A stretch of DNA of 42,848 nt from positions 30,454 through 73,301 of IMG/VR virus record IMGVR_UViG_3300030103_005513, one strand, 5' to 3'. This document shows, in pieces, positions 23,047 through 42,766 of the stretch (within the stretch, counting starts at the first letter, position 1; each line of letters starts with the position of its first letter). The notes beneath the pieces were generated by a model. That model was not told where the DNA came from. It did not search any database and worked only from the letters and a program-made list of their open reading frames with translations. The translations under genes and the position numbers were made by a program. This stretch comes from a virus.

Positions 23047-23118
23047 ATTTATACTCCCTGTAGGTCTTGGTTTAGGGGGAGTAGGAGATAACACAAAAGT
23101 CACTCCGTATTATTTATA
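23047..23118 (-). promoter_or_regulatory. psbA promoter and leader region
   Basis: TATAAATA on the minus strand at 23111-23118 overlaps the stop of the upstream SGNH-like gene; a second near match (GTATAAATC) is at 23047-23055. Between them ACTCCC (23053-23058) and GGGAGT (23077-23082) can pair, so a transcript from the upstream element has a stem in its roughly 95-base leader. Confidence 0.5.
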
Positions 23119-23886
23119 GTAACAAAAATTTACAAACTTGTCAAGCATGTCTGCTATCTTGATGTGACACTCTCTATTAGGGTGTTTTGTATGTGGATTC
23201 ACTAGATTTTTTTTCAGTAAAAATTTTATCCTATCATCATCTAGTTGCCATGTTGATAAATGATATCCGATCATGCTTGGTTTATGACCCATATCAATAC
23301 ACAAATTACTCATCAAATCTCTTGATTTTTCGTGTGACATAATCATATTAGGACTATCGTAATTGTAATTGTGGTGATTGAAAGTATCGAACCAATAATT
23401 TTTTACCCCAATCATCTTAAAATAATTATCCCAATGTTGAATTTGAGTAGATAATCTTTTTACCTCCACGTCATGATCATAATAATTCGTTGTCCACTTT
23501 AAGTTTCTTTTTTTTGTAAGATGATAAGTTGTATATTTTTTTTCTTTATTACTCCACACATCCATCCTTGCTGTAGAGGTGATGCCCCATAGGACTATGA
23601 CATTATTATATTTTTTATAGTCATCTGTATTGAAATACTCTTCCGCAAATCTAAATTGTCTTTGATTTGATGAACCACCCTTCGCAAAATTTATATTTAC
23701 ATAATCATGTCTCCTTGATAGTATAGTTCTAAAACAATACTCATCAGTTAAGTCTTTGAAATGCTTCTGGTACAATGAGTCCCTCATCTCGTCTGTAGAC
23801 ATCTCAGTGTGCCTCAAGATGTTTGGATCGTACCAACTAAATTTACCTTTAGTCCAACTACATCCGAAGGTAATCAGTGCATTCAT
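23110..23886 (-). CDS. SGNH-hydrolase-like protein, larger variant
   Basis: 258 residues. N-terminal ITFGCSWTKGKFSW (Ser at 10), block II-like NFAKGGSSNQRQFRFAEE, strand NVIVLWGITSTARMDVW and C-terminal KHPNRECHIKIADML. This is the same overall plan as the SGNH-like genes at 5.5-8.2 kb but with a longer middle and little direct similarity. The block V Asp is missing here too. It is the last gene of the glycan run, three bases after the first DUF616 gene, which suggests esterase or acyl-group chemistry on the glycan. Activity is unproven. Confidence 0.55.
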   Translation of the reverse strand: MNALITFGCSWTKGKFSWYDPNILRHTEMSTDEMRDSLYQKHFKDLTDEYCFRTILSRRHDYVNINFAKGGSSNQRQFRFAEEYFNTDDYKKYNNVIVLWGITSTARMDVWSNKEKKYTTYHLTKKRNLKWTTNYYDHDVEVKRLSTQIQHWDNYFKMIGVKNYWFDTFNHHNYNYDSPNMIMSHEKSRDLMSNLCIDMGHKPSMIGYHLSTWQLDDDRIKFLLKKNLVNPHTKHPNRECHIKIADMLDKFVNFCYYK

Positions 23887-23889
23887 AAT

Positions 23890-25788
23890 CTATGTTTTTG
23901 GTAGATTGGGATTGAGAACATTTTTTATCACGTAATCTCTGAACGACCAACCCCAGTCCCAGACATGCATCTCATATAATTCTGGTGGTAAATCATCTAG
24001 ACCAATTGATCTCTTCAATCTTCTGACCCAAAAAGAATTATTTTTATTTGAATCTTTATTGAAAGGAACTCTATTCTCTTTTACAATTTTTACCTTATCT
24101 TGAATAGAGTATTTACCATGAGAAGTTCTAATGGTGGTGGGATCGTACCACCAATCACCTTTGTTCAACCAACACTTTGTGTCTGGATCTTTTATTTCAT
24201 GCCAATCCACCTGATATATGTGATGCTCATCTTGTATCCCTGTTATAGGTCTTATTGTTTTGAACAAGTCATAACACTCTCGCAATACGTCATCGTAAGT
24301 ATTATTTGTGGTGAAACTACCTGCCTGAGGATGCCTTTTGTTTCTAGCAATCTTTGATTTTGGTGATGTAAGATCAAGACCTATAGTCTCCCAATTATGT
24401 ATCCTACTCCAGTTTAATTTTGTCAATTGTCTTGCACAATCAAATGATATCTGATCTCGATTAGACCCTATCTTACTATACTTCCACCATAGATCATGAA
24501 ACTCTGCCATCTCATCATCTATCTGCCTCCATATACATGTCAAAACTGGTGAGCAATATTGTTTAAAATCATAGTCAACTTTACTTAGAGCATCGACAAG
24601 TTCAAGCATCTGTTCCTTGCTATTATAGTTGGCACCAAAACCCTCCATAATTTCATTATGAAAAGTAAATCTATGAGGATGCAACATGTGCGTCAGAGGA
24701 ACCTCTTTCAATATATCTTTAGACAAGTCAACCCATTCTTTAGTATGAACATAACATCCATCTAACCATACCGTCTTAGATCCATATGGAAATAACTTGT
24801 GTGGACAAATTTTTGCATAAGAAGATAACCTTCTAGGGTCACCCTCTATTTCATCGTAAACAAAATCAGGTATAGGTCTGAACTCCCAAGGTCCTTTCTT
24901 CTCTACATTACCATCTGTATAACAAACATACTTTACCTCTGGATCATAATACATGTCATCAGGTATAGTATCATACCAATTTGTTATACTGGTATAAATT
25001 ATGATTTGATCTTTCTCTGGGTTATCCCACTCAATCGCATATGAATACACACCTGCATCACCATAGAAAGGTTCACCAGTTATGCGATCTGTACCTGTCC
25101 TAAAATATTCTTTCCAATCAAATAAACCTGTAAGTTCTGTGAGTAAATCTGTAAACTCAATTATATCTACCTCCTCTTCGTGGTACACATAATCACCTGT
25201 CCTATTATTCCACCACTCACCGTTAGGACTTGCATCAGAAAATTGATTTATAAGGTCTCTTGATGATTCAGTTTCATATTCTACACCACTTAATTGTAAT
25301 GCTACAGAGCATGCTAATTGATCTCTTACACCACCTCTGTTGTACCACTTCCACCACAATCTATCAAAGTCTTTTGTATTACCATTTCTCCAAATAATAG
25401 TGCATAAAGGAGAGAAGTATTTCTCAAAATCAAATGATGTTTCTGATACCTCTGTAGTAAATTTAAGAATGTCATCAGGATCTACCCATCCTTTAGATAT
25501 ATACTCAGCACATTCTTCAAGGTAGGAATGTTTATGAGGGTGACTCATTATAAAAAATTTTTTACGAGATAATATATCTTCACTTATTTCTTTGAATTTA
25601 TCATTTAGAAGATGAACTTTTGATGCGTCTATGTATACACTTGGTTCGTCAAAAGGACATAATATTTTTTGTTTCCTACTACTTCTAACTGGGTCGCCTA
25701 AATCCTCTACATCTGTTATTACTTTTACCCATGATGGTGCCTGTAAATCTTCGATATAATTGTTTGTGTTTATAGTATAGTAAATCAT
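23890..25788 (-). CDS. Two-domain DUF616-like (TOD1/MUCI70-type) glycosyltransferase
   Basis: 632 residues with two DUF616-like units. Unit 1 (about 1-200) is partly worn: SVYIDAS, MSHPHKHS, GGVRDQLA. Unit 2 (about 265-480) is complete: IIYTSITNWYD, VKYVCYTDG, TVWLDGC, MLHPHRFT, CSPVLTCIWRQ and GSNRDQIS. DUF616 proteins in plants are GT-A-like glycosyltransferases. The D-x-(S/C) and HP..R elements repeat in both units. A C-terminal extension of about 150 residues (rich in Trp) has no match I know. ATGA overlap with its paralogue upstream. Confidence 0.7.
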   Translation of the reverse strand: MIYYTINTNNYIEDLQAPSWVKVITDVEDLGDPVRSSRKQKILCPFDEPSVYIDASKVHLLNDKFKEISEDILSRKKFFIMSHPHKHSYLEECAEYISKGWVDPDDILKFTTEVSETSFDFEKYFSPLCTIIWRNGNTKDFDRLWWKWYNRGGVRDQLACSVALQLSGVEYETESSRDLINQFSDASPNGEWWNNRTGDYVYHEEEVDIIEFTDLLTELTGLFDWKEYFRTGTDRITGEPFYGDAGVYSYAIEWDNPEKDQIIIYTSITNWYDTIPDDMYYDPEVKYVCYTDGNVEKKGPWEFRPIPDFVYDEIEGDPRRLSSYAKICPHKLFPYGSKTVWLDGCYVHTKEWVDLSKDILKEVPLTHMLHPHRFTFHNEIMEGFGANYNSKEQMLELVDALSKVDYDFKQYCSPVLTCIWRQIDDEMAEFHDLWWKYSKIGSNRDQISFDCARQLTKLNWSRIHNWETIGLDLTSPKSKIARNKRHPQAGSFTTNNTYDDVLRECYDLFKTIRPITGIQDEHHIYQVDWHEIKDPDTKCWLNKGDWWYDPTTIRTSHGKYSIQDKVKIVKENRVPFNKDSNKNNSFWVRRLKRSIGLDDLPPELYEMHVWDWGWSFRDYVIKNVLNPNLPKT

Positions 25789-27314
25789 AATACACTGTGC
25801 TCTCTCATCAAGAAATCATGGTCATGATACGTTGTATATAGTTTGGGATGAAGACCTGTAATTTTTTTCATCTCCTTCAACAATTCATCTTTCCTATGGT
25901 ATTGTTGTAGGTCACCTCTCTGTGGATGTTTCCCCCTTCTACCTACCTTATTATAATATCCAAGAGGCACACCTGATTCTTCCCTATTTTCTATTACTGA
26001 CGGAAGTAATCCTGATTCTTTGAGTGCCATGTCGTATGCAATTTGATCTCGATTACATCCTACAAGCGACCACTTGTACCATGATTCATTGAATAATTTT
26101 ACATTCGGTGTCAAAGTTCTCCACACTATCGTACCAAGCGGACTACAATATGATTTGAAATTGTATCCAGAATCTTTTAGTTCTTGTGTAAGAGTTATAG
26201 CATCGTCAAAAGAAAAGAATGCACATAAAAACCCCTCCAGTATCTCATCATAATATGTAAATCTTGATGGGTGTCTAAGCATTGTAAATGGAAAACACCT
26301 TCTACTTTTTTCTATAAAATTTGATGTGTGTTGGTAACAAGCATCAACCCATACTGTATGTGATCCTTCTGGAAAAAATATATGTGGATTTGCTTTGGGA
26401 TAAAATGATAATCTTCTTGGACAATCTATATCTAAATCTAATTTTATATACTCCCATGGTTCAATGGTAGTGTCAATTGAACCATCATGAAAACAAACAT
26501 ACCTGACATCAGGATGATAATATTCTGATACTAGATTATCATATCCATTTGTGATACAGGTGTACACAATTATATCTTTTGGATCAACATTATAATTCAT
26601 GTTGAATGATCTTTTTGTGATGGGAAATATCTTACGCATGTCTCGTACGATATCTGTTGATGGTGTATGTAATTTGTATGATTCTTTGTAAGATTTCATC
26701 CTACTACTTTTGTTCATATCAATAACAAGATCAACTCTATGTGCTTTCGTGACCAAAAACTCAGCGATAGAACTAGAAACTTGATCTCTGTTTACACCTT
26801 CATCATACCACTGTCTCCACACTTTGCACCACTCTATAATTTTTGATGTCAATCTTCTCCATACCACACAATTTATTGTTTGATCATAAAACTTAAGTGG
26901 AAAATTAATTGACTTGATACGTTTACACATGTCAATAATTTCATCACTGGTAGAAAATCCATGGTTATATAACTTCTCAAACTCCTCTACCAAAGTTCTC
27001 CTGTCAGGGTGTCTTTGTAATATAAAATCATGTTTCTCTAAGAGGTTCTTAGAATATTCAATGAGTTCATTTGATATGCTATACGATGCATCAATCCACA
27101 CAGTTGAAGCACCTGATTCAAAGTAAAGGTGAGGACAATGTTTTGGATGATAAGATTTTCTTACTGGACATTTCTCATCTATGTCTATCTTTCTATACTC
27201 CCAACCCTCTGTGTCTGGTCGATCACCATCATAAAAACAAATAAATTTTACATTAGAATTAGGGGGTGGTGCTAACTTATCATAACCATTTGTTATGGCA
27301 GTGTAGAATATCAT
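25785..27314 (-). CDS. Two-domain DUF616-like glycosyltransferase
   Basis: 509 residues with two complete DUF616-like units (about 1-215 and 245-440). Each has FYTAITNGYD / VYTCITNGYD at its start, an FxDG turn, TVWIDAS / TVWVDAC, RHPDRRT / RHPSRFT, a CVVWRR / TIVWRT strand and GVNRDQVS / GCNRDQIA. The second unit is followed by KHPQRGDLQQYH, which also occurs as KHPQAG in the 632-residue paralogue, so the genes arose by duplication of a two-domain ancestor. ATGA overlaps at both ends. Probable role: sugar transfer in the cluster. Confidence 0.72.
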   Translation of the reverse strand: MIFYTAITNGYDKLAPPPNSNVKFICFYDGDRPDTEGWEYRKIDIDEKCPVRKSYHPKHCPHLYFESGASTVWIDASYSISNELIEYSKNLLEKHDFILQRHPDRRTLVEEFEKLYNHGFSTSDEIIDMCKRIKSINFPLKFYDQTINCVVWRRLTSKIIEWCKVWRQWYDEGVNRDQVSSSIAEFLVTKAHRVDLVIDMNKSSRMKSYKESYKLHTPSTDIVRDMRKIFPITKRSFNMNYNVDPKDIIVYTCITNGYDNLVSEYYHPDVRYVCFHDGSIDTTIEPWEYIKLDLDIDCPRRLSFYPKANPHIFFPEGSHTVWVDACYQHTSNFIEKSRRCFPFTMLRHPSRFTYYDEILEGFLCAFFSFDDAITLTQELKDSGYNFKSYCSPLGTIVWRTLTPNVKLFNESWYKWSLVGCNRDQIAYDMALKESGLLPSVIENREESGVPLGYYNKVGRRGKHPQRGDLQQYHRKDELLKEMKKITGLHPKLYTTYHDHDFLMREHSVL

Positions 27315-28099
27315 CCATTCAAATTATCTTTAGGTTGCAATTTACCAGACTGCTCACCCAATATTCTATTTGTCACTTGACCTGGTTCACGAGAGAACCA
27401 TCCAGTTGCTATGTATTTTGACACATCTCCTGTAAGAAAAGAACCTCTATGTACATGAGTGTATGCTGCTGGCCACAATACTATGGTGCCTTTCTTTGGT
27501 TGAAAAGATATTTCTTGATGGAAGAAATCAGTTGCTCCACCATTTTCTAAAGGGATATCATTGAGATAAATCATCCATGTCAAAACTCTATCTCTATACA
27601 GGAAACTACCATTTTCTGAATGCCATACATGGTATCCCCCACCAGAATTAGTTTTCTGTATTTTACAAGTCCATGATGATACAGGATCTGATGCATCTAA
27701 TATCCCTTTCCATTTCTTTGCATAAATTTCAAACGCTCCACCCACTGCTTGATTTACTTCCATTGCAAGAGAGGGATCACAAATCTCCAAGTATAATTGT
27801 TGATCTTTTCTACCAAAGTCACCATATTCATTAAACTGTTTGCTTCCATCACCCAATGGAGACACACTAAGTTTTTTACCCTCCACCTCACACACTTTGA
27901 CTTCTTCTACATGTTTTTTACCGTACCAAAACTCAAATGAATCTATGATAGCATCACAAAATTCCCACTTGACAAAATTATCGAACACACCTATGGCACC
28001 ATAGTCTCTCATGCCATTATAATCTGGTTGTTTATCCTCAGGTGGAAGCACTACCTTATTCGCAAATGATTGATCATAATTCACTCTTTCAATTGACAT
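27311..28099 (-). CDS. 2-oxoglutarate/Fe(II) oxygenase (prolyl-4-hydroxylase-like)
   Basis: 262 residues. The metal site is GYHVWHSENGS: H160-x-E162, an HxE variant of the usual HxD. It is followed by the strand LTWMIYLNDIPLENGGATDFF, then PKKGTIVLWPAAYTHVHRGS with the distal His (215 or 217) and YIATGW. These enzymes hydroxylate proteins or small molecules. Within a glycosyltransferase run it might hydroxylate a protein acceptor or a sugar or lipid. ATGA overlap with the DUF616 gene. Confidence 0.75.
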   Translation of the reverse strand: MSIERVNYDQSFANKVVLPPEDKQPDYNGMRDYGAIGVFDNFVKWEFCDAIIDSFEFWYGKKHVEEVKVCEVEGKKLSVSPLGDGSKQFNEYGDFGRKDQQLYLEICDPSLAMEVNQAVGGAFEIYAKKWKGILDASDPVSSWTCKIQKTNSGGGYHVWHSENGSFLYRDRVLTWMIYLNDIPLENGGATDFFHQEISFQPKKGTIVLWPAAYTHVHRGSFLTGDVSKYIATGWFSREPGQVTNRILGEQSGKLQPKDNLNG

Positions 28100-28901
28100 T
28101 TTGTGACTCCTGTTTGCCTTGGTTTATGTAGACCTGTGGTGGTATTCTACCACAGTATTCATCTAATTGCATCACTTCTTGTATCTTGACATCACCACCA
28201 TTCTCTCTCCAAAAATCTGTGAGTGCATGGTTACTATTTTTATGAAATATTTCTATGTGTTCTTCATGTATTGCTGAACCCATATCTAATCTATAATTGA
28301 ACAATGGTGTGGCATATGACTTACCACTGTCAAGAATCAAGTCTTCGGAGACTGCTCTTGGTCTGATATTTTGGTCGATTTTCCATTGCGATCCCCTGCT
28401 GTGAAGTTTAAGGAGTTTAGTTGCATGATGACGAGTAATAAGGTAGCAAGCAGCAGAAAAGTCATTGATAAATCTGTGGTGTAATTTCAATGTTATACCA
28501 TTAGGATTTATAATAGTAAGTTGTAAACAATCAAAAGCGATTGGCACTCTACGTCTAACATCTTTCCATGTAAAATTCCAATGCCTTGCTAGTGATAAAT
28601 CAACATCATCTTCCATGACAAATATTTCATCATGGTCTGTCTCTTCTATAAAATATTTGAGTGCTGAAAGATGTGACATAACACATGCTATCTCACCATC
28701 ATTCATATTAGGTGGTACAGTTCCCTTGAGATATGATTCATATTCAGCACCATCAATACCAGAGATCCTATGATGATTTTTGACATCCCAATAATCAAAT
28801 TGCTCCTCCATATATTTTTTCCTGTCGGGAAACCTATCGAGATTGATCCACAAGACAGGAGGAAAGTTTGCGAGTTTGAATAATGCCTTGTTCTTATCCA
28901 T
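28089..28901 (-). CDS. Glycosyltransferase family 25 (LPS type)
   Basis: Start chosen at ATG 28899-28901 (MDKNKALFKLANFPPVLWIN) because AGAGGAG precedes it; ATG 28931 lacks a site. About 270 residues with the GT25 order WINLDRFPDRKKYMEEQF, RISGIDG, GEIACVMSHLSAL and FVMEDDVDLSL (the DxD-like metal site). GT25 enzymes add galactose or glucose to LPS cores or, in animals, to collagen hydroxylysine. The neighbouring prolyl-hydroxylase-like gene makes a protein target conceivable. Overlaps both neighbours. Confidence 0.8.
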   Translation of the reverse strand: MDKNKALFKLANFPPVLWINLDRFPDRKKYMEEQFDYWDVKNHHRISGIDGAEYESYLKGTVPPNMNDGEIACVMSHLSALKYFIEETDHDEIFVMEDDVDLSLARHWNFTWKDVRRRVPIAFDCLQLTIINPNGITLKLHHRFINDFSAACYLITRHHATKLLKLHSRGSQWKIDQNIRPRAVSEDLILDSGKSYATPLFNYRLDMGSAIHEEHIEIFHKNSNHALTDFWRENGGDVKIQEVMQLDEYCGRIPPQVYINQGKQESQNVN

Positions 28902-29763
28902 TTCTCCTCTTGATATAGTCAACCTCTTCATAATATTTCAATAGAGATTTCTTTCCTTTTACCTTAAGTTCTTCCCATAGTTTTTTATTGTCTTCACAAT
29001 GTGGATTATTGAACCATGAATTTTTTGTGCGACCATGCTCAAGGTGATATACATTTTCAGTCAATCTTGCAACACTTGATAGAAGATTGAATCTCATATG
29101 TCTTTCATCATCCTCATATCCATACGCTATAAAATTCTCGTTTTCACCACCGAATTTTTTGTAAGTTTCAGTATCAAAAAATTGACAGAATCCATACTTA
29201 GCATCCCAATGTCTCATCCTACCATTGAATGACTCAAAATTAAATCCACTATTCACAAAAGCAGTAGCATGTTCATCAGCAATGTGGCATTGATACTGAT
29301 ACTGACCATATCCATATGGATACACAACCTTTACAGGTTCGCCACCCTCTCTGTCTGGATGCACCCACCCCTTCAATATCATATTTGTTGCATTGATATA
29401 GGAGTCAACAGGTAGTATTATATCACTATCATAATTTGCAACGACTGGAGTTTTTACCAACCATAACATGTCATTGAGTATCTTTGTCCTATGAAAAGTA
29501 AACTCATCACTCTCCTCAAAAATATGAGTGATGCAATTCATCATCTCAGGTTCAAGTGCTTGCTCAAGTAATGGTTTTACATCACGTAAATATACAGATT
29601 CCTTATCAACCTCCTTGATAATAATTCTACATGCAAAATTACGAGTGAGATATATCAATGTGGTTATGATATTTCTCATGCGATCAGCAGTCTCAATTCT
29701 AAGTGGTATAATAAACGTGCACTTAGCGAGATTGAATCTATTTACTTCTTGTCCTTCAATCAT
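28894..29763 (-). CDS. GT-A glycosyltransferase (GT2/chondroitin-synthase-like)
   Basis: 289 residues: TFIIPLRIETADRMRNI at the N-terminus, ANYDSDIILP with the DSD metal motif near 114, and the C-terminal acceptor part WDAKYGFCQFF, YGYEDDERHMRF (the ED motif of galactosyl- and chondroitin-type transferases) and NVYHLEHGR. It transfers a hexose or hexosamine from a nucleotide sugar; donor not predictable. Starts with a 4-base overlap to the GT11 gene. Confidence 0.75.
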   Translation of the reverse strand: MIEGQEVNRFNLAKCTFIIPLRIETADRMRNIITTLIYLTRNFACRIIIKEVDKESVYLRDVKPLLEQALEPEMMNCITHIFEESDEFTFHRTKILNDMLWLVKTPVVANYDSDIILPVDSYINATNMILKGWVHPDREGGEPVKVVYPYGYGQYQYQCHIADEHATAFVNSGFNFESFNGRMRHWDAKYGFCQFFDTETYKKFGGENENFIAYGYEDDERHMRFNLLSSVARLTENVYHLEHGRTKNSWFNNPHCEDNKKLWEELKVKGKKSLLKYYEEVDYIKRRNG

Positions 29764-34775: not shown

Positions 34776-35511
34776 CGGTGTTCCTCCATTCACCAGGTAA
34801 AAGATAATGTGGTAGGTGCATCTGATGTACCTTCACGTCAGTTCCCACGAGCATCTTCCAATTCAAATGCTCCGTGATTGATATATCAGTGCAATAAAAA
34901 TGTTCTATGTTCTGACTACACAATGCAGCAGCAACAGCAAAAGTTCCTACACCAGAGTTAGCAACATGTTTTGCTCCTAACAATGTAGAAAAATCTTCGG
35001 CTACGCTACCACGTTGTATAGTAACTTTTTTATCGTAAGATAACGCCTCTACTATGGGATTATAATTATCATTTTCAGTGACAACTATCGCTTTATCAAA
35101 CGAATCAAGGAGTGTATGGTAAAAATGATAAGGATTAGGACTGTACTGTTCAGGATTAGGGACGTTTTGGTCAAAAATATCTCCACTCCTGATATGAATA
35201 ACAAGAGTATCATCAGGTATTTTTGTTGGTTGAATGTCAAGGTGGGGATAGATCCATGTCTTACAAATTCTACGCATGTTTTTGTAGATTGTTTCAACAG
35301 GTAAATTGACTTCTTGATAAGGTCCTTCCCAATAAAAACACTTTGAGTGTACAGGGTTTCTGACTTTACCGAAATTTGTTTCGTGTTTCTTAATGATATC
35401 ATGTTCAATAGAATGGAATGAAGAACTCATTTGTTCTGCCCACAGTGTACCGACTGCACATTGTTGGATATTGTTTCCTAATCTACCATACCAATGTGAT
35501 AGATAAATCAT
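34729..35511 (-). CDS. GT11/O-fucosyltransferase-fold glycosyltransferase
   Basis: 260 residues. N-terminal SHWYGRLGNNIQQCAVGTLWA (the LGN(N/Q) loop of GT11) and TLVIHIRSGDIF (HxRxGD), then ILGAKHVANSGVGTFAVAAAL in place of the GT11 NSS/SWW block. So it is a diverged fucosyltransferase-fold enzyme, likely using a GDP-sugar. ATGA overlap with the epimerase gene upstream and 47 bases overlap with the oxygenase gene. Confidence 0.65.
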   Translation of the reverse strand: MIYLSHWYGRLGNNIQQCAVGTLWAEQMSSSFHSIEHDIIKKHETNFGKVRNPVHSKCFYWEGPYQEVNLPVETIYKNMRRICKTWIYPHLDIQPTKIPDDTLVIHIRSGDIFDQNVPNPEQYSPNPYHFYHTLLDSFDKAIVVTENDNYNPIVEALSYDKKVTIQRGSVAEDFSTLLGAKHVANSGVGTFAVAAALCSQNIEHFYCTDISITEHLNWKMLVGTDVKVHQMHLPHYLLPGEWRNTDEQREFILSYKAPLS

Positions 35512-36632
35512 TTAGCACAACTACCATATGCCTTATATTTTTTATTTGATAGGTCTGATGCAGGGTACATCTCTTTTGCTATTTGTGACATGATCCAATT
35601 GTATGTTTTTCTTATACCCTCTTCAAGAGTCATACTATAATCCCAACCTAATTTTTCTCTTATCAAATCATTGTTAGAGTTACGACCACGCACACCAGTG
35701 TGAGGCACATCAACATGATCTTTTGTTATTTTTTTATTGGCGACTTTTGCAGCAGTGTCAACTAATTGATCTATGGTTACCATCTCTTCAGATCCAATGT
35801 TCACTGGTTCAAGACAGTCTGAGTCCATGAGTCTACGGGTTGCTTCTATACACTCATCAATGTAAAGGAATGATCTTGTTTGTTTTCCATCACCCCATAC
35901 CTCTATTGTATCTTCGAGGTTTGCATAGGCAACTTTTCTGCAGATTGCTGCAGGTGCTTTCTCCCTGCCTCCGTGCCACGTTCCTTCTGGTCCGTAGATG
36001 TTGTGGTAACGAGCAATCCTAACAGGAATATTATAGTTACGATAGTAAGAGAGATATAACCTCTCACTGAATAATTTTTCCCATCCGTATTCGGAATCAG
36101 GGTTAGCAGGGTAAGCGGATTCTTCACGACAATCTGGGTTGTTAGGGTCTAATTGATTATGTTCTGGATACATGCATGCAGAACTTGAGTAAAATATTTT
36201 TGTTGTATGTCTATTCTCTACAGGTCTTGAGTCCCACTTATCACCATAGGATTCATTCAACTTGCGTTGCTCCTCAAGCAAATTCAAATTGATTGATGCT
36301 GAGTTGTGCATGATCTCTGCGTCATGTTCACCAGTGAAAATGTAACCTGCTCCTCCCATATCAGCAGCAAACTGATATATCTCATCAAAGGTTTCTATCA
36401 AATAGTTTGGAACTGAATTGTAAAAGTTTCCCTGTTGACCTTTGTATTCAATAACTTTTCTTACAAAGTCTACATCTCTTAGGTCACCTGTAACAAATTC
36501 GTCAGCAACAGACATAGAGAAATCTGGAAACTTAAGGTCAACACCTCTAACCCATGCTCCTTCCTCCTTCAATCTCTTTACCATATGACTGCCGATGAAC
36601 CCACCTGCACCCAATACTAAACACTTCTTCAT
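35508..36632 (-). CDS. GDP-mannose 3,5-epimerase-like SDR enzyme
   Basis: 374 residues. Rossmann loop LGAGGFIGSHMVKRL, then QFAADMGGAGYIFTGEHDAE (the Met-Gly-Gly segment diagnostic of GDP-mannose 3,5-epimerase), YSSSACMYPE, the catalytic YGWEK and RYHNIYGPEGTWHGGREKAP. The known enzyme converts GDP-D-mannose to GDP-L-galactose or GDP-L-gulose. It fits the three fucosyltransferase-fold genes here. Starts with ATGA overlap after the RfbH-like gene. Confidence 0.82.
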   Translation of the reverse strand: MKKCLVLGAGGFIGSHMVKRLKEEGAWVRGVDLKFPDFSMSVADEFVTGDLRDVDFVRKVIEYKGQQGNFYNSVPNYLIETFDEIYQFAADMGGAGYIFTGEHDAEIMHNSASINLNLLEEQRKLNESYGDKWDSRPVENRHTTKIFYSSSACMYPEHNQLDPNNPDCREESAYPANPDSEYGWEKLFSERLYLSYYRNYNIPVRIARYHNIYGPEGTWHGGREKAPAAICRKVAYANLEDTIEVWGDGKQTRSFLYIDECIEATRRLMDSDCLEPVNIGSEEMVTIDQLVDTAAKVANKKITKDHVDVPHTGVRGRNSNNDLIREKLGWDYSMTLEEGIRKTYNWIMSQIAKEMYPASDLSNKKYKAYGSCAK

Positions 36633-37924
36633 TGTGGTTGATAGTCCTCCATTATATCATATATGTAGTCTAGCATAGGCATCGTAATAACAGGAGAACA
36701 TCCTAAGAAAAATACATTATCTAAAACTTTTGAAGCTCTGGGATAGTTTGATGCAGGTTCAATGTCACGATAAGCAGGGTGCATAAGAATATTACCAGCA
36801 AAATAATTCCGTGTTTGAACTCCATGTTCCTCTAGATATTGCACTAAGTGATGTTTATGTTTATATATTATAGGTACACCAAACCATGAAGTCTCTGCAT
36901 GTTCTTTCTCTTCGACAACCCTGCAACCAGAAATCTTAGAGAAGACTTGTGTCATAGCAGTTTTATTCATACGACGGACACAATGTATCTCCTTCTGCTT
37001 CTTCAGTTGTACAAGACCAATAGACCCTTGCAGATCGGCAGGTTTGAGGTTGTATCCTTGGACTCCAAAGACATACTTATGATCGACATCCTTGTCATAC
37101 CCCTCCAACCAACGATCAAACCTATTGTTACAGACACCGTTGGGCAATTTATTTTGGGAACCTACACAATAGCATCCACGACCCCACCAAGCAAACGATC
37201 TGGCGATCTGAACTATCTCCTCGACATTAGAGGAGACCATGCCCCCTTCAATCGTGCAGATATGATGAGCTGGGTAGAAAGAACAAGACGCTGCGATGGC
37301 ATGTTTAGTAAGCAACTCACCTCTCCACTTGCTACCGAGGGAGTCACAATTGTCAGCGATATACTTCAACCCATTTCTATCAACAATGTCGAGGAACTTA
37401 TCAAAGTCGTAGGGATTACCAAGGACAGGTGATGAAAATGCAGCAACAGTTCTATCTGTTATCTTTGCCTCAACTTGATCAAGATCCCAATTTAAGTCAT
37501 CCTCATTTATATCTACAAAAACAGGTTTCAAACCTGCCTGTATTATAGGGTTGATTGTGGTGGGAAATCCACATGCACATACAATTATTTCATCTCCATC
37601 TTTCCAATCAAAATATTTCTTCAACGCTGCTATCATCACAAGGTTAGCAGATGATCCACTGTTCACCATGACAGAATGCTTGAACTCAAATTGTTTTGAA
37701 AATGCTCTCTCAAATTTATTTACATTCTCACCTGCAGGTAACCACTTACCAGACAATAACGCTGTGATTGCAGCAGTGGGTTCTTGGTTGTCCCAATAAG
37801 GACCTGAATAATATATTGGATCACCCTTTTTCCAATTTTGATTAGGAAGATATGGAAATAATTTATATCCCTCCTTCTCAAGATGAAATACAAAGTTATC
37901 TACTTGTTCACTCAGACTATACAT
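36629..37924 (-). CDS. RfbH-like PLP-dependent sugar 3-dehydrase
   Basis: 431 residues of the DegT/StrS fold, but the PLP lysine is replaced: CSFYPAHHICTIEGG puts His at 220/221, as in CDP-4-keto-6-deoxyglucose-3-dehydrase (RfbH, E1). The [2Fe-2S] cysteines of E1 also appear: C193, C251, C253, then C265. In E1 the last spacing is 7 residues as I recall; here it is 11. Further match: HKYVFGVQGYNLKPADLQ. The enzyme would give 3,6-dideoxyhexoses. The reductase partner and the cytidylyltransferase are not in the window. The stretch 37021-37380 is about 47% GC by hand count, above its neighbours. Confidence 0.82.
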   Translation of the reverse strand: MYSLSEQVDNFVFHLEKEGYKLFPYLPNQNWKKGDPIYYSGPYWDNQEPTAAITALLSGKWLPAGENVNKFERAFSKQFEFKHSVMVNSGSSANLVMIAALKKYFDWKDGDEIIVCACGFPTTINPIIQAGLKPVFVDINEDDLNWDLDQVEAKITDRTVAAFSSPVLGNPYDFDKFLDIVDRNGLKYIADNCDSLGSKWRGELLTKHAIAASCSFYPAHHICTIEGGMVSSNVEEIVQIARSFAWWGRGCYCVGSQNKLPNGVCNNRFDRWLEGYDKDVDHKYVFGVQGYNLKPADLQGSIGLVQLKKQKEIHCVRRMNKTAMTQVFSKISGCRVVEEKEHAETSWFGVPIIYKHKHHLVQYLEEHGVQTRNYFAGNILMHPAYRDIEPASNYPRASKVLDNVFFLGCSPVITMPMLDYIYDIMEDYQPQ

Positions 37925-38730
37925 AAATCCTTGACAATAAATTCGTTTGTGATGTGTTGTGCAAAACCCAGTCTCTTCAATTTAGTTGTGTCTAACCAGA
38001 AGTGTTGTGTCTGTACGTTATTGTGAAACTCTGGTGGGTCTATACTTATTATCTTACCACGAGATCTAGTAAAATGTTTAGCAAGTTCAACTATTTCACT
38101 AACTCTTGTTGGTTCACCTGATCCTATATTATAGATCTGATTTATCTCACCTTTATCCATCACAAGTTTGATTGCTCTACACACATCATCAACATGCATG
38201 ATGTCACGACAATGTGATCCATTATCGTATACTTTGATATCTCTATCTGCTTTCAATTCATTGACCATCCATTGAATAGCATTCTTTTTTCTACTTGCTT
38301 TAGTGTCACCATCACCCATAACATTACATAGTCTAAGTATCCTATATTTCATCCCCGTAGTTTGAGCGAAAGATATGATAAGATCTTCCGCACACTTTTT
38401 GGTAATAGAATAAAATCCTGTTGGGTTGCATACCGATACTTCTGTTGCTGGAATAGTTCCTCCCTTTCCATAGACAAACCAAGATGATACAAAGTTGAAT
38501 GTAATATCTTTCGATCTACAGTAGTCAAGGGTTTCACACAAGACTCGTAAATTAGTATCGACATCTCTAGTGATGTCATCATGGACATGGTAATTGTGTA
38601 TTGTTGAAATCATGTACAAGATATCATTATGAATAGGAACTCTCTCATTTCTATCCTGTACTTCTACTTCATCATTGTACATCTCTTTGAAATTTCTGCC
38701 AACGAAACCACATCCGTATAATGAAATCAT
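37912..38730 (-). CDS. NAD(P)-dependent sugar epimerase/dehydratase or reductase (extended SDR)
   Basis: 272 residues, short for the family. YGCGFVGRNF (NAD loop), FVSSWFVYGKG, the catalytic GFYSITKKCAED (Tyr-x3-Lys), LRLCNVMGDGD and CRDIMHVDDVCRAI. The C-terminal substrate lobe is small. With the RfbH-like gene next to it, it could be the final 4-reductase of a 3,6-dideoxyhexose route (abequose or paratose synthase type), but the sequence alone does not fix that. 13 bases overlap with the RfbH-like gene. Confidence 0.7.
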   Translation of the reverse strand: MISLYGCGFVGRNFKEMYNDEVEVQDRNERVPIHNDILYMISTIHNYHVHDDITRDVDTNLRVLCETLDYCRSKDITFNFVSSWFVYGKGGTIPATEVSVCNPTGFYSITKKCAEDLIISFAQTTGMKYRILRLCNVMGDGDTKASRKKNAIQWMVNELKADRDIKVYDNGSHCRDIMHVDDVCRAIKLVMDKGEINQIYNIGSGEPTRVSEIVELAKHFTRSRGKIISIDPPEFHNNVQTQHFWLDTTKLKRLGFAQHITNEFIVKDLCIV

Positions 38731-39674
38731 GTCAATTGTTCTATGTAATGTGTGACTGTTGCACGGAGTCCAATGTCAAAATTTGTGAACGGTCTCCATC
38801 CAGTTGTATTTGTTATCTTACTATGATCCATACCATATCTTTTGTCAATACCTGGTCTTCCTTCATTGATACCAATCAAATCAAATGGTTTGTTCATCAT
38901 CTTCAATATCATTTTTGTTACATCAATATTTCTCATCTCACATGACCCACCAATATTGAAGTGATCATTCATTATACCTTGCACCTCTAGTTCCCAAATG
39001 GCAGCACAATGATCGTAAACATACAACCAATCCCTTATCTGATGTCCGCCACCATGCATGAATGTCACCTCATTATTCAAAGCATTACTTACAACAAGTG
39101 GAATTAATTTTTCTACATGTTGATGAGGACCGTAATTGTTAGAACAATTAGTAATAAGATAAGGTAAACCGTATGTGTTATGCCAAGAAGTAACAAAATA
39201 GTCAGACGCTGCTTTGCTTGCAGAGTATGGATTTCTTGGGTCATAGGGGGTAGTTTCTTTAAATAAATCTGTGTCGTCATATTCAAGTGATCCGTATACT
39301 TCGTCAGTGGATATGTGATGAAACTTTTCTATCTCATGTTTCAAACTAGCATTCAGTAAATTGATTGTTCCAATGACATTTGATTCAAGAAAAGGTCTAT
39401 AGTTTTTTATAGACCTATCTACATGTGATTCAGCAGCAAAGTGAAATACTTTTCTTGGTTTATACTTATCAAAAATATAATTTACGTTCCTCTCATTTGA
39501 TATATCACACCACTCAAATATAAATTGATCTGTTTTTGGTATAAAATTTAGATCAGCAGCGTAGGAAAGATTATCAACAACAACAACTGGTTCAAGAAGA
39601 TCAGTATCATTGCTAATATAATGTAAAAAATTACTACCTATAAAACCTGCACCCCCTGTGACAATGTATGTCAT
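38727..39674 (-). CDS. rmlB: dTDP-glucose 4,6-dehydratase (RmlB/RfbB-like)
   Basis: Start set at ATG 39672-39674 (MTYIVTGGAGFIG), which shares one base with the upstream stop (TAATG). 315 residues: VTGGAGFIGSNFL, FAAESHVDRSI, HISTDEVYG (Thr-Asp-Glu catalytic set), NPYSASKAASD (Tyr-x3-Lys), NNYGPHQ and RPGIDKRYG(M)D, which is the RmlB-type ending. It makes the 4-keto-6-deoxy intermediate that the next two enzymes need. Whether the carrier is dTDP, CDP or GDP cannot be read from the sequence with certainty; dTDP fits best. Confidence 0.88.
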   Translation of the reverse strand: MTYIVTGGAGFIGSNFLHYISNDTDLLEPVVVVDNLSYAADLNFIPKTDQFIFEWCDISNERNVNYIFDKYKPRKVFHFAAESHVDRSIKNYRPFLESNVIGTINLLNASLKHEIEKFHHISTDEVYGSLEYDDTDLFKETTPYDPRNPYSASKAASDYFVTSWHNTYGLPYLITNCSNNYGPHQHVEKLIPLVVSNALNNEVTFMHGGGHQIRDWLYVYDHCAAIWELEVQGIMNDHFNIGGSCEMRNIDVTKMILKMMNKPFDLIGINEGRPGIDKRYGMDHSKITNTTGWRPFTNFDIGLRATVTHYIEQLT

Positions 39675-40036
39675 TAGTAGTGTCCCCAAGTATGATGCTC
39701 AACTCTATTATAATCATCTTCCAATCTAACAATATCATCTTCCCTACAGTCTCCTCTTTGAACCTCAATAATTGTAATACCTTTCTTCCCACCAGTGATT
39801 CGATGTCTTTGTTCAATACCTATAAAAAATTTATCACCAACAGATGCTTCCGTGTCCAAATTATTCTGGGTAATGATACCATCACCACCCACCACGATCC
39901 AATCTTCAGTGCGATACCGATGAAATTGGAGTGAGATTCTCATCTCTGGTTCAACCCACAATTGTTTGACACAATATTTGTCACCTCTTTGTAGGACTTT
40001 GAACCATCCCCATGGTCTAAATTCTTTTTCCTTCAT
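39674..40036 (-). CDS. Mannose-6-phosphate isomerase type II cupin domain
   Basis: 120 residues: EFRPWGWFKVLQRGDKYCVK, then LWVEPEMRISLQFHRYRTEDW (cupin metal His), HRITGGKKGITIIEVQRGD and ENVRLEDDY-like end (DDIVRLEDDYNR). This is the C-terminal domain of ManC/AlgA-type enzymes standing alone, without the nucleotidyltransferase half. It interconverts fructose-6-P and mannose-6-P, the entry to GDP-mannose and so to the epimerase-like enzyme. ATGA overlap with the ligase. Confidence 0.83.
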   Translation of the reverse strand: MKEKEFRPWGWFKVLQRGDKYCVKQLWVEPEMRISLQFHRYRTEDWIVVGGDGIITQNNLDTEASVGDKFFIGIEQRHRITGGKKGITIIEVQRGDCREDDIVRLEDDYNRVEHHTWGHY

Positions 40037-41370
40037 GATAATAGTGTACCAGATCTAAAGTATTCACGCAATGCTTGAATGTCAAGTTTAATACCAGACA
40101 TGAACATTGGTTTTATAAGCACAGCAGATTTTGATATGACATGTCGTCTATCAAATTTGGATTGCACCTTATCTATATCTATACTGTCATCCCACATTGC
40201 AAGATAAATTTTATTATATAGAAAGTCAATCACCAATGTACCATTACCGACGTAAGATTGATACTCTTGCACTGGAACCTCAACATCATTTATTCTTATC
40301 AAATCATCTCTACCATGAAAGATATATCTATCTCCCTCTCTCGAAAATTTGTCGCTTGTTTGTAAATCATCTACACATAACAAACCACCTTTGATTTCTA
40401 GCTTATAAAAATTGTCTATAGGATAAAATTTATTCGGTGCAAAGTTCTCATCATTCAAGGTGTTTATCATTACAGGACCTGATGTTTCACTCATACCATA
40501 CAAACTTATAATGTTTTTTACTTTACCATTTCTCCACTCAGGTCTTATGGCAGCAAGAGTGTATACATTCAAGTTAGGAAAATTTATATCACCATTTATA
40601 AACTGTTCAATGTCCTCTGTATATGGAAATTGAACATGGTCAATGTCATCAAGGGATTGTGTGTGTCTACCTGATGCACGTATATCAGTTACATTATCAG
40701 ACATGAGAGTTGGTAAAAAGAAAGTAGCAAAACTACTTCCATGCATAAACTTTCTTGTGGTCACCACACTTCCATAAAACATGTACGAATTGCGTTTACC
40801 TAATCTACACATGAAGTCATGTGTATGTTGTATTTTTTTTGGTGACCCAGTGGTACCACTACTTGTACATAACATTAAGACACTATCAGGTGTAGCGTTT
40901 ATAATATTATTTGGTTCAGTATCAACCCATTGATTTACCTCATCAATATCAATATGAGTGTGTGCTATATCTGTATAAAATTTTTCCTCCGATCCTTTAC
41001 CTGTATCATCATCTGATATTTCAATGATGGTTTTTTTATTGGCAGTGACAATGTAATCGATTGGCATTACACATAGTGTCTTAGCATCAATCCATGTTCT
41101 ATCTTTCTCATAATATAATCTCTTTGAATATGATGTGACAGATGCAACAATAGTGATCATGCCAAGTTCACTACTAGCGATGAATAGTGCTGTTGCATCG
41201 TAACCTTTTAAGGCATTCATTATAGTATCACCCTTGCCTACATTATATTTTTTTGTCAATAAATTTTTGTACCTATCTATTTGCACACATAAGTCATTAT
41301 AATTATGAGTCTTATTAAAAATTATATTTTTATTTACAATCTCTCTTGATATCACTAATGTATTTTTCAT
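40033..41370 (-). CDS. AMP-forming acyl/aryl ligase (ANL family)
   Basis: 445 residues, somewhat short. The P-loop core LMLCTSSGTTGSPKKIQHTH, ISLYGMSETSG (A5) and IFHGRDDLIRINDVEV (A8) are clear. Near the end, MFMSGIKLDIQAL looks like a worn A10 motif with its Lys. No carrier-protein domain is attached. It would activate a carboxylic acid as acyl-AMP, for acyl decoration of a sugar or amine, or for thioester formation with a separate carrier. No acyl carrier protein or acyltransferase is visible next to it. Confidence 0.75.
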   Translation of the reverse strand: MKNTLVISREIVNKNIIFNKTHNYNDLCVQIDRYKNLLTKKYNVGKGDTIMNALKGYDATALFIASSELGMITIVASVTSYSKRLYYEKDRTWIDAKTLCVMPIDYIVTANKKTIIEISDDDTGKGSEEKFYTDIAHTHIDIDEVNQWVDTEPNNIINATPDSVLMLCTSSGTTGSPKKIQHTHDFMCRLGKRNSYMFYGSVVTTRKFMHGSSFATFFLPTLMSDNVTDIRASGRHTQSLDDIDHVQFPYTEDIEQFINGDINFPNLNVYTLAAIRPEWRNGKVKNIISLYGMSETSGPVMINTLNDENFAPNKFYPIDNFYKLEIKGGLLCVDDLQTSDKFSREGDRYIFHGRDDLIRINDVEVPVQEYQSYVGNGTLVIDFLYNKIYLAMWDDSIDIDKVQSKFDRRHVISKSAVLIKPMFMSGIKLDIQALREYFRSGTLLS

Positions 41371-41617
41371 AATCTGGGTTTGGATGATTGATAAGACGTT
41401 TGTGATATAATTCTATCACAGTTATTGCTGCTGTGCCCTCAAAAAATGCAGGCACGAGTCCATGAATTATACTTGCGACACCAGAGAATATCAATCTCAT
41501 GCCTGCAAAAAAAGCAAAAACACAATGATTCCCATATGTCTCCTTGCTTTTTGCAAGATGTTTTTTACTTCTGTATAAAAGATTGTGCTGCTTGCCAATC
41601 ATTTTCAAAAATCTCAA
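41330..41617 (-). CDS. DUF6356-like small membrane-associated protein
   Basis: 95 residues from ATG 41617 (ATG 41602 possible). HLAKSKETYGNHCVFAFFAG, then MRLIFSGVASIIHGLVPAFF and GTAAITVIELYHKRL: a hydrophobic helix flanked by His-rich parts, resembling DUF6356, a family of short proteins in bacteria and phages. Function unknown. It overlaps talC by 53 bases and the ligase by 41, strongly packed. Confidence 0.6.
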   Translation of the reverse strand: MRFLKMIGKQHNLLYRSKKHLAKSKETYGNHCVFAFFAGMRLIFSGVASIIHGLVPAFFEGTAAITVIELYHKRLINHPNPDYEKYISDIKRDCK

Positions 41618-42242
41618 GACCTCTGTCTGTTAGAACATGATTGTACATCTTCTCAAATACACTTGGTGGCATTGTCACAATATCTGCTCCATGTGCAAAA
41701 GATTGTGAGACACTATTTACGTATCTGATTGATGCAGAAAGTATTCTTGTTCTATGTATGCACTGAACTCTAAACACATCATCAATATCTTTTATAAGAT
41801 TCAAACCAGTAATAGAATTATCATCTAGTCTCCCAACAAAGGGTGACACATATGCAGCACCTGCTTTTGATGCAAGAATCGCTTGTGCCACATCGAATAT
41901 AAGGGTGACGTTTACACGTACAAGTTCTCTTGATAATTGTCTACATGCAATCAACCCATCAGGTGTGCATGGCACTTTGACTGTTGCACACTTACCAAAC
42001 TTTGATGCTAATCTTCTTCCTTCAACGATCATGTTTGATGAGTCACCCATAACCTCCATACTTATATCATTCAATCCAATATCCTTAAGTTCTGCATAAA
42101 CTTCATCAGGATCTCTACCACTCTTGTAGATAAGGGATGGATTAGTTGTGACACCATCAATCAACCCTGTGGCAAAATGTTTTTTAATAATTTCAGTGTC
42201 AGCTGTATCAAGAAAGATACGCATATTATCTGATGACATCAT
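41565..42242 (-). CDS. talC: Transaldolase TalC
   Basis: 225 residues of the short TalC/FSA-type aldolase. MRIFLDTADTEIIKKH, VTTNPSLIYKSG, CATVKVPCTPDGL (Schiff-base Lys), VNVTLIFDVAQAILASKAGA, VSPFVGRLDD and RILSASIRYVNSV. In cyanophages TalC steers host carbon into the pentose phosphate pathway for NADPH and ribose. ATG 42240-42242 has an ATGA overlap with the upstream gene; MRIFLD from ATG 42224 is the canonical family start. Here it stands at the head of the glycan run. Confidence 0.92.
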   Translation of the reverse strand: MMSSDNMRIFLDTADTEIIKKHFATGLIDGVTTNPSLIYKSGRDPDEVYAELKDIGLNDISMEVMGDSSNMIVEGRRLASKFGKCATVKVPCTPDGLIACRQLSRELVRVNVTLIFDVAQAILASKAGAAYVSPFVGRLDDNSITGLNLIKDIDDVFRVQCIHRTRILSASIRYVNSVSQSFAHGADIVTMPPSVFEKMYNHVLTDRGLEIFENDWQAAQSFIQK

Positions 42243-42766
42243 AAAAGAAATTCAAAGTAATTCAAGTTTAGCACACACCTTACTTTAGTGTCAATCTGAG
42301 ACACACCTCTATGCTTTATATTTGAGGGAAACTTGACATACCTATTCGCAACACTCATAATTTTTTCACCCGATTCAAACTCTGTATAACCATCATTAGT
42401 GTTGATATAGTATATTCCAGTAGTCATCGTACTACAATTCACATCACAATGAAAATTACTATAAGATCTCTTTGTTTTGACTGGTTCGAGGTTTGCCTTG
42501 ATTCTATGCAGTGCAACAAATGGAATCTTATTTACAAGTGGTAATAAAATATCAATAGACTTTGATTGTTCATACACTACTTGACCAGTGCATGAATGAA
42601 AGGTGAAGAATACATGTACAAATTGATAATTATCAATACTATTTTCAGTTTGAGTTGACACCTTTGTATTATTATATTTCCAATCGATCCCACCATTCCC
42701 AATCATAAAATCATGAACTCGCTTGTGATCACTTGGATTTAAAAAGTTATCAATTACTTCAATCAT
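42239..42766 (-). CDS. 2-oxoglutarate/Fe(II) oxygenase
   Basis: 175 residues. MIEVIDNFLNPSDHKRVHDFM start, NFHCDVNCSTMTTGIYYINT with H-x-D, GYTEFESGEK, then RYVKFPSNIKHRGVSQ with the distal His and KVRCVLNLNYF with the 2OG Arg. It is the first gene of the long minus-strand run and likely the head of its transcript. It is the third oxygenase of this fold in the cassette, each from a different subgroup. Confidence 0.75.
   Translation of the reverse strand: MIEVIDNFLNPSDHKRVHDFMIGNGGIDWKYNNTKVSTQTENSIDNYQFVHVFFTFHSCTGQVVYEQSKSIDILLPLVNKIPFVALHRIKANLEPVKTKRSYSNFHCDVNCSTMTTGIYYINTNDGYTEFESGEKIMSVANRYVKFPSNIKHRGVSQIDTKVRCVLNLNYFEFLL

Follow-up and report, generated by a model that had tools for sequence, protein, structure and literature searches.

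That cyanophages carry large clusters of glycan genes has been known since 2005. The clusters labelled 'LPS' (lipopolysaccharide) in P-SSM2, S-SM2 and S-SSM7 are long one-strand runs of nucleotide-sugar and glycosyltransferase (GT) genes, which lie between the talC side and psbA/hli and carry GT11 (T4-GC 260) and GT25 (T4-GC 266) genes at their end; S-SM2 and S-SSM7 also carry a GDP-mannose 3,5-epimerase (GME), and P-SSM2 has the order T4-GC 235-237 trio, talC, glycan run and psbA. These features recur in the locus described here, a run of 23 genes in a 42,848-base stretch of DNA (hereafter the window), which forms the final part of the 73,301-base virus record IMGVR_UViG_3300030103_005513. 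Compared with the 'LPS' clusters, the run, or cassette, is a larger unit with hardly any gaps, whose fixed order is shared by many uncultured marine phages, and it has an RfbH branch, a DUF5672 protein, two tandem D616 GTs and a GT25-oxyC pair. A passage of Sullivan et al. 2010 (PMC3037559) names T4-GCs 260, 265, 266, 304, 305, 307 and 308 as co-occurring in cyanophage LPS clusters, and states that it is not known if such genes have a function or are 'stuffer DNA'. The run contains homologues of GC 260 and 266 (46-50%) and an RmlB-type match to GC 265 (30%), and none of the kinase/nucleotidyltransferase functions of GC 304/305/307/308 was recognised in it with Pfam.

Among cultured Synechococcus phages, RB11-B, S-B05, RN05-S, S-B43 and S-H68 carry a close RfbH (about 64%). 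RB11-B, the one of the five compared gene by gene, has homologues of cupin, RmlB, SDR, GME, DUF5672, GT2, GT11, GT25 and talC in one run; however, its RfbH follows GME, and talC is placed within the run, which also contains additional epimerases. The exact unit was not found in the four cultured phages to which it was closely compared; these have only some of its genes, in a different arrangement. Among annotated phages none was close to the window except in small patches such as psbA. For S-SCSM1, an excerpt of the published description (PMC9602691) places MPI and GME among 'cell wall' genes, together with GMD and fucose synthase. The giant viruses PBCV-1 and mimivirus encode their own pathways to rare sugars and their own GTs, independent of the usual secretory pathway, according to a section of PMC4691112; there, the virion glycoprotein and the glycan are known, whereas the present system is known from its genes alone, and chloroviruses use GMD/GMER where this phage has GME. 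A literature search, mostly without subscription papers, retrieved no description of the conserved unit, of its selection or of the rarity of GME in hosts.

Layout and conservation of the run

The window belongs to a T4-like cyanophage, with psbA, thyX, phoH, gp32, a T4-type gp59 and T4 baseplate and tail-tube proteins as markers in the window or contig. The original prediction, made without database searches, had described about 23 gap-free, overlapping genes over about 20 kb. Indeed, 23 open reading frames (ORFs) on the minus strand span positions 23110-42766 (19,657 bases; Table 1), including talC and DUF6356, which had not been named before. Of the 22 internal junctions 21 overlap, by 4-65 bases if the listed ORF starts are used, some of which may truly lie further in; the remaining junction is a 3-base gap. 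At the 3' end a gap of 103 bases separates the run from psbA and its PhotoRC-II-like leader, and at the 5' end a plus-strand ORF begins about 42 bases upstream of position 42766. Another assembly, from an almost identical phage (locus L085), overlaps the end of the window (99.91% over 6,763 bases) and reaches beyond the end of the contig, where it reveals divergent genes with signal-peptide-like starts. Both ends of the run thus lie inside the window, and its 5' end is complete.

We then compared the run with relatives, for which loci were fetched from viral contigs by similarity to GME, AMP-ligase, RfbH or D616b (with at most the best 80 taken per scan, of at least 599 for GME and of 126 for RfbH) and searched by tblastn with the window proteins. 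The 220 loci formed 159 clusters at 95% identity and were scored for 18 core genes. The genes proved not to be scattered: the core genes were collinear on one strand in 100 of the 104 de-duplicated clusters with at least four of them, in 43 of 44 with at least eight and in 24 of 25 with at least ten, in the fixed order talC-cupin-RmlB-SDR-RfbH-GME-GTs-psbA (exceptions: L212, L150, L032 and L042). Because similarity to cassette genes guided the choice of loci, the survey describes near relatives; more distant GME loci (e.g. L023, L053, L071 and L077) carry fewer run genes. Among the 44 clusters with at least eight core genes, RXYLT1-like was present in 32 and DUF5672 in 38. The genes occupy a comparable locus in relatives, between the T4-GC 235-237 trio/talC and psbA, as in P-SSM2. 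From the conserved gene order in relatives we conclude that the run is more than a chance arrangement.

Variation is confined to the slots talC|cupin, GME|GT11-like, GT11-like|RXYLT-like, GT10|GT2 and D616b|psbA, which hold FkbM-like genes, oxygenases, a GT17-like gene (named from the RB11-B annotation and by eye) and, beside talC, an AMP-ligase family (8 ORFs); with the core order fixed, a hypervariable patchwork was rejected. Nor was there support for a host island as the source of the entire unit, as window-like neighbours were few in 11 cellular RfbH loci: SDR (7), DUF5672 (1) and weak RmlB- or GT11-type matches. The single-particle virus AG-345-D19 carries two halves of the cassette on two contigs, and a part of PMC6122165 lists plate AG-345 under 'Extracellular Sort Gate'.

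Next, dN/dS was determined pairwise between relatives, with each sequence used once and only pairs with a dS of 0.1-1.2 considered. Usable pairs existed for 22 of the 23 run genes, all but the AMP-ligase, with a single pair for DUF6356 and two for oxyA. The median values of these genes lay between 0.068 (GT25) and 0.310 (SGNH), compared with 0.064 for psbA. Sequences with a stop inside the match were left out of this analysis and of the residue tests (25 for GT25, two each for GT2 and oxyB, one each for RmlB and GME, and also two for cbmC and one for pdg); the listed start of GT25 is probably too early. Active sites have not been lost: the tested catalytic residues were nearly all conserved among de-duplicated relatives (Table 1), of which AMP-ligase had only two, while DUF5672, RXYLT1-like, the methyltransferase and DUF6356 were left out of the residue tests. 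On the basis of conserved order, purifying selection and conserved active sites we conclude that the cassette is functional and not stuffer DNA. The original reading as a glycan-building unit of a T4-like cyanophage, held in one locus with intact enzymes, therefore stands.

Table 1 Genes of the run, listed in the direction of transcription, and its flanks. Residue counts refer to de-duplicated relatives; cut-offs are those of the respective database.
Feature	Position	Strand	Basis	Conserved residues
Divergent spacer and start of vspA (conserved exported-protein gene)	42767..42848	+	Runs beyond contig; whole in L085	
oxyA, 2OG-Fe(II)-oxygenase-like, first run gene, optional in relatives	42239..42766	-	HxD...H motif; no Pfam hit; phrog_274 'DNA endonuclease V', E 1.1e-39	H106/D108/H152 9/9; R163 5/9, K in 4
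talC, transaldolase-like	41565..42242	-	PF00923 E 4.1e-49; TIGR00875 206.4 bits, under 245.95 cut-off	Schiff-base K89 43/43
DUF6356 protein, one hydrophobic segment	41330..41617	-	PF19883 E 1.7e-14, over curated cut-off	
AMP-forming acyl/aryl ligase-like, variable slot talC|cupin	40033..41370	-	PF00501 E 4.3e-13	
Cupin, type II mannose-6-phosphate isomerase domain	39674..40036	-	PF01050 E 4.6e-24	H39, E44, H78, E91 46/46; Y41 only 16/46
RmlB-like dTDP-glucose 4,6-dehydratase	38727..39689	-	TIGR01181 368.5 bits vs cut-off 365.1; PDB 1bxk E 1.1e-82	T128 D129 E130 (TDE) and Y155 K159 (YxxxK) 53/53
SDR, probable 4-keto reductase paired with RfbH	37912..38730	-	PF01370 E 6e-30	S82 Y107 K111 52/52
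RfbH/E1-like PMP, [2Fe-2S] 3-dehydrase	36629..37924	-	PDB 3bcx E 4.3e-65	H220, C193, C251, C253, C265 52/52
GME, GDP-mannose 3,5-epimerase	35508..36632	-	PDB 2c59 (Arabidopsis GME) E 1.5e-82	C153 Y182 K186 K225 R253 102/102
GT11-like, fucosyltransferase-type HIRSGD motif	34729..35511	-	Motif; no Pfam or PDB sequence hit	R108, D111 42/42
oxyB, 2OG-Fe(II)-oxygenase-like	34218..34793	-	HxD...H motif; no Pfam hit; phrog_274	H115 D117 H165 R175 29/29
RXYLT1-like putative GT	33320..34249	-	PF24785 E 0.0016, under cut-off	
DUF5672 putative GT	32668..33336	-	PF18922 E 7e-18	
GT10, fucosyltransferase family	31874..32671	-	PF00852 E 6.1e-10	E166 E176 K177 35/35; V165 25/35
FkbM-like methyltransferase	31210..31884	-	Motif reading only; no hit in Pfam, PHROGs, NCBIfam, PDB	
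GT2	30536..31234	-	PF00535 E 2.2e-08	D99 D100 33/33
GT11	29760..30539	-	PF01531 E 5.9e-23; 46% to P-SSM2 T4-GC 260	R139 D142 61/61; F216 53/61
GT7C-like GT-A protein	28894..29763	-	PF02709 E 0.00078, under cut-off	D112 D114 E217 D218 D219 46/46
GT25, true start probably inside listed ORF	28089..28931	-	PF01755 E 3.3e-12; 50% to P-SSM2 T4-GC 266	E107 D108 D109 45/45
oxyC, 2OG-Fe(II) oxygenase	27311..28099	-	PF13640 (2OG-FeII_Oxy_3) E 3.7e-11	H160 E162 H215 K228 50/50
D616a, tandem putative GT	25785..27314	-	Asp motifs in both halves; no Pfam hit	D75, D324 and NRDQ-type Asp in both halves 39/39
D616b, tandem putative GT	23890..25788	-	GT-A fold in AlphaFold2 model; phrog_26101 glycosyltransferase E 0.0007	D54, D343 30/30
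SGNH-like hydrolase/acyltransferase	23110..23886	-	Motif reading only; no Pfam, PHROG, NCBIfam hit	S10, H235 15/15; G71 12/15; H232 3/15
PhotoRC-II-like leader of psbA, marks 3' boundary	23011..23093	-	36.3 bits, under 39-bit gathering cut-off, E 0.016	
psbA, downstream neighbour	21924..23006	-	PF00124 E 1.9e-86	

Enzymes of the run and the supply of sugar donors

Pfam matches over the curated cut-off were obtained in the run for transaldolase, AMP-binding, the mannose-6-phosphate-isomerase-type cupin, DegT, DUF5672, DUF6356, GDP_Man_Dehyd/Epimerase (three SDRs), GT10, GT2, GT11, GT25 and 2OG-FeII_Oxy_3. The nucleotide-sugar enzymes named in the original prediction (cupin, RmlB, RfbH-like, SDR and GME-like) were supported by Pfam, TIGR01181 and the PDB entries 3bcx, 2c59 and 1bxk, and the expected nine or more GT-type proteins turned out to be ten, namely GT10, GT11, GT2, GT25, DUF5672, GT7C-like, RXYLT1-like, GT11-like, D616a and D616b. 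Five of these were assigned by Pfam matches over the cut-off, GT7C-like and RXYLT1-like by matches under it, and GT11-like by its motif. In a fold search with the GT11-like model, the sole match at E ≤ 0.001 was the dehydratase-type WbjB, with POFUT2, NodZ and FUT8 weaker, and its PDB profile search gave chance matches only. The AlphaFold2 model of D616b (mean predicted local distance difference test score 81.6) matches GT-A chains over residues ~255-488 at Z 10.6-12.9 with a second aligner, whose listed matches include LARGE1, glycogenin, UGGT and GT6 enzymes; as modelled, D616b thus has a GT-A fold. Its PDB profile search gave nothing useful.

The tailoring set comprises three 2-oxoglutarate (2OG)-oxygenase-like proteins, an FkbM-like methyltransferase, an AMP-ligase and an SGNH-like protein. 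Pfam supports oxyC among the three predicted oxygenases, while oxyA and oxyB are identified by their HxD...H motif; likewise, the AMP-ligase is supported by PF00501, and the methyltransferase and the SGNH-like protein by motif only. Because oxyA and oxyB carry the HxD...H pattern, these sequences suggest that the PHROG name 'DNA endonuclease V' is wrong for the phrog_274 family. In relatives, 66 slot proteins form a cluster homologous to the methyltransferase. For the AMP-ligase no match was found in 50,697 phage records; it shares 27-41% with most relatives in the same slot (talC|cupin), besides two near-identical strains, and genes around this slot differ between phages. The family diverges far more than the core genes, and the AMP-ligase perhaps provides a varying cap.

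The GME of the run is close to plant GME and keeps C153, K186, K225 and R253, which we take to be the catalytic cysteine, lysines and arginine, in all relatives tested. When aligned with E1 (3bcx), the RfbH-like protein has H220 in place of the lysine that binds pyridoxal phosphate, and C193, C251, C253 and C265 presumably hold the [2Fe-2S] cluster; it scores under the NCBIfam RfbH equivalog cut-off (341.8 bits vs 423). A dedicated ferredoxin-type reductase (RfbI/E3) was not recognised in the run with Pfam. There are TDP-using relatives that rely on general ferredoxins. Since the run combines a dTDP-type 4,6-dehydratase with an SDR of the kind that adjoins RfbH in 7 of 11 cellular RfbH loci compared, the product of this branch is best read as a dTDP-3,6-dideoxyhexose. 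No nucleotidylyltransferase was recognised in the run (Pfam, NCBIfam), so that GDP-mannose and dTDP-glucose would have to be supplied by the host. At the other end of the contig lies a CMP-sugar-type cytidylyltransferase (PF02348, E 6.1e-28; L002:420-1139), followed by overlapping ORFs without a known family, possibly a second glycan cluster.

A clear contrast between phage and host was found for GME. In the family of Prochlorococcus AG-347-J21, taken as the host family, the GME query matched 1 of 300 genomes at E ≤ 1e-40, and in the phylum 2 of 292 genomes (49-50% identity), whereas the controls GMP_PMI (GDP-mannose synthesis) and gmd exceeded their cut-offs in 135 and 88 of 151 host-family genomes, respectively. 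In viral contigs, at least 599 stretches matched GME, and among the matches listed in phage records 37 of 50 were at ≥57% identity (duplicates included). RfbH was found at E ≤ 1e-60 in 4 of 300 host-family genomes, three of which (G008, G009 and G010) were carriers known before the search, and DUF5672 at E ≤ 1e-10 in three of 300 (35-41% identity); D616b had no match in the 300 genomes, a search without positive control to which we give no weight. Because GME is so rare in a host family in which GDP-mannose synthesis is widespread, the phage, as judged from these homology searches, probably diverts host GDP-mannose into a donor foreign to the host, GDP-L-galactose or GDP-L-gulose. Six GME-bearing virus records, none known to be complete, had no gmd over the cut-off, with weaker SDR matches in four of them; three (L123, L160 and L013) carry the collinear cassette. 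A phage-made GDP-fucose route was rejected on these counts. The fucosyltransferase-type enzymes, which we infer to accept GDP-L-galactose or L-gulose, therefore probably use one of these as their donor.

The one host-family genome with a phage-like GME (71.5%; L342:7760-8851) has it beside an ORF reading as a serine resolvase, amid genes that by eye read as a glycan island; a phage-to-host transfer is possible.

Site of assembly, acceptor and alternative explanations

The original prediction had gone as far as a complete pathway. Here it did not hold, since no nucleotidylyltransferase and, according to Pfam, NCBIfam and hydropathy, no flippase, polymerase, initiating or lipid-carrier transferase or ligase was recognised in the run. 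With the hydropathy threshold used, none of the 23 run proteins has two hydrophobic segments, and DUF6356 and the AMP-ligase have one each; among 326 slot ORFs from relatives, 12 have one and none has two. The run thus lacks the Pfam families and the proteins with two segments by which a Wzx/Wzy O-antigen or capsule system would be recognised. Since no flippase, polymerase or lipid-carrier enzyme is seen in the run, assembly probably takes place in the cytosol.

For control of the cassette, we surveyed the divergent spacer of 31 de-duplicated loci. A late-like TAAATA motif, our own variant of the T4 late sequence (TATAAAT in a passage of PMC3037559), pointed toward vspA in 22 of 31 loci and toward the cassette in one, while a sigma70-like pair with at least 10 of 12 positions pointed toward the cassette in 11 (four of them perfect) and toward vspA in none. 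As no sigma70-like pair stands out in 20 of the 31 loci, including the window's own sublineage (L085, L118 and L086), these motifs suggest early-type control for part of the relatives only. A promoter scan across the whole run gave no excess (98 matches vs 92.9 in shuffles). In L146, L161 and L150 the spacer that separates talC from the divergent trio contains a tRNA-like sequence, which follows a sigma70-like site.

Taken together, we consider it about evenly balanced that the 23 genes act as a single functional transcription unit, whose enzymes produce and assemble a short, mostly host-foreign oligosaccharide. The observations behind this proposal are that gene order and active sites are conserved, that selection is purifying and that the key sugar enzyme is rare in the host family. 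If it is correct, the cupin would top up mannose-6-phosphate, from which the host would make GDP-mannose, and GME would convert the latter to GDP-L-galactose (or L-gulose). The RmlB-type enzyme would turn host dTDP-glucose into dTDP-4-keto-6-deoxyglucose, RfbH, reduced by host or phage ferredoxin instead of its own reductase, would remove the 3-hydroxyl, and the SDR would reduce the 4-keto group to yield a dTDP-3,6-dideoxyhexose. About ten soluble GTs could then build the chain in the cytosol, with three fucosyltransferase-type GTs accepting L-galactose in place of L-fucose, and the oxygenases, methyltransferase, AMP-ligase and SGNH protein may trim or cap it.

Several points tell against this proposal. 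The carrier of the RfbH branch, dTDP rather than CDP, is read from RmlB alone, and host GDP-fucose (see gmd above) could equally feed the fucosyltransferase-type enzymes. The hydropathy threshold found only three segments in psbA, which has five helices, and the host could lend a flippase and a ligase for transfer to an envelope lipid. Moreover, the early-type promoters toward the cassette fit a modification of the host at least as well, and the best pair in the window's sublineage, 8 of 12, is at chance level, being met by 62-68 of 100 shuffles.

As the run encodes no step for lipid linkage, flipping or polymerisation, we regard a phage-made protein, in the virion or exported, as the likeliest acceptor, in a tentative judgement that stops just short of an even chance; some acceptor other than this or a host surface molecule is unlikely. 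The proteins of the divergent trio have signal-peptide-like starts and contain 26%, 32% and 15% Ser+Thr (L085:2275-3889). They correspond to T4-GC 235-237 of P-SSM2, are annotated as 'OMP1 protein' or hypothetical, are conserved in some 400 cyanophage records (393 for one protein and 432 for another) and lie next to the cassette in the 31 loci used for the promoter survey; about ten other talC-bearing loci, some ending near talC, gave no match. The main alternative, a host surface molecule, is a serious possibility of somewhat lower probability, and we rate the corresponding scenario the same: the genes would be expressed early, foreign sugars would be put onto host LPS or an envelope glycan via host lipid carriers and flippases, and other phages would be kept from superinfecting the cell, or progeny from re-adsorbing. 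The promoter counts favour such a conversion, GT10, GT11, GT25 and RfbH are common LPS-type families, and the sole GME-bearing host-family genome has its GME amid the island-like genes described above. However, the run has no recognisable initiating transferase, flippase, polymerase or ligase, early promoters are compatible with virion decoration as well, since enzymes can precede their acceptor, and no promoter was recognised in the window's own sublineage.

A more specific route, which we consider rather improbable, is hydroxylation-dependent protein O-glycosylation, in which oxyC would hydroxylate a side chain, GT25 would add the first sugar and D616a/D616b would extend it. As in collagen hydroxylysine glycosylation (LH3, COLGALT1, R699), a 2OG oxygenase stands beside a GT25 and tandem GT-A proteins, and GT25, oxyC, D616a and D616b are contiguous in most loci carrying them. 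In the PDB, oxyC has five matches, each a prolyl 4-hydroxylase (E 0.006-0.07), and GT25 has a single one, the mimivirus GT R655; for D616b, the top nine matches in Foldseek are chains of human LH3 or mimivirus R699, the latter a collagen galactosylhydroxylysyl glucosyltransferase as stated in an excerpt of PMC9546862. These similarities are weak, though, with E-values of 0.006 and 0.065 and a template modelling (TM) score of at most 0.24 at a root-mean-square deviation of about 20 Å in Foldseek, and LH3, R699 and COLGALT1 are not among the 50 matches listed by the second aligner. No collagen-like acceptor was found in the contig: in 14 ORFs from its first 31.5 kb the longest Gly-X-Y run is three in tail fibres, without a collagen-like repeat, and six in a glycine-rich protein. 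GT25 is, moreover, also a common LPS family. That oxyC, GT25 and D616a/b form a self-contained system that anchors an O-glycan of L-galactose and a 3,6-dideoxy sugar, both hardly within the host's own capacity, on the phage's exported or virion proteins, driven by host GDP-mannose and photosynthetic ferredoxin, is somewhat more doubtful still. We think it very unlikely that the glycan is put on phage DNA or a small molecule: T4 itself glucosylates DNA and the GTs of the run are soluble, but Pfam, PHROG and NCBIfam revealed no hydroxymethylase or DNA glucosyltransferase family in the run, although no search was aimed at them, and, to our knowledge, ten GTs and two special sugars exceed any known DNA modification. 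Least credible of all are stuffer DNA or decaying passengers kept for headful packaging, a possibility that the cited passage of Sullivan et al. 2010 (PMC3037559) left open for cyanophage LPS clusters, which for this cassette is contradicted by the low dN/dS values, the conserved catalytic residues and the conserved overlapping order.

Other features of the window and biological meaning

Outside the run, a carbamoyltransferase is found in pieces at 13630-17027: an N-terminal part at 16056-17027, a C-terminal part at 14484-15206 and another N-terminal match at 13630-14487. A gene for a pyrimidine-dimer glycosylase lies among these pieces, and two adjacent radical SAM proteins lie at 9775-11747, between gp59 and a PD-(D/E)XK nuclease. 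Just downstream of psbA, the ORF at 20581-21870, which gave no Pfam or NCBIfam hit, reads by eye as an amidinotransferase (pentein) and is present in several cassette loci. Glutamine and Glutamine-II riboswitch-like matches at 19101-19153 are both under their cut-offs.

For this cassette, the doubt whether cyanophage LPS genes are stuffer DNA is answered. Furthermore, the frequency of GME in phages and its near absence from the host family make a direct test possible, as any L-galactose or L-gulose detected in the virions of a cyanophage with GME, or in cells infected by it, would have been made by the phage. If the proposed pathway is true, abundant marine viruses would release their own sugar signature into the ocean, either worn by the virions or painted on their hosts.

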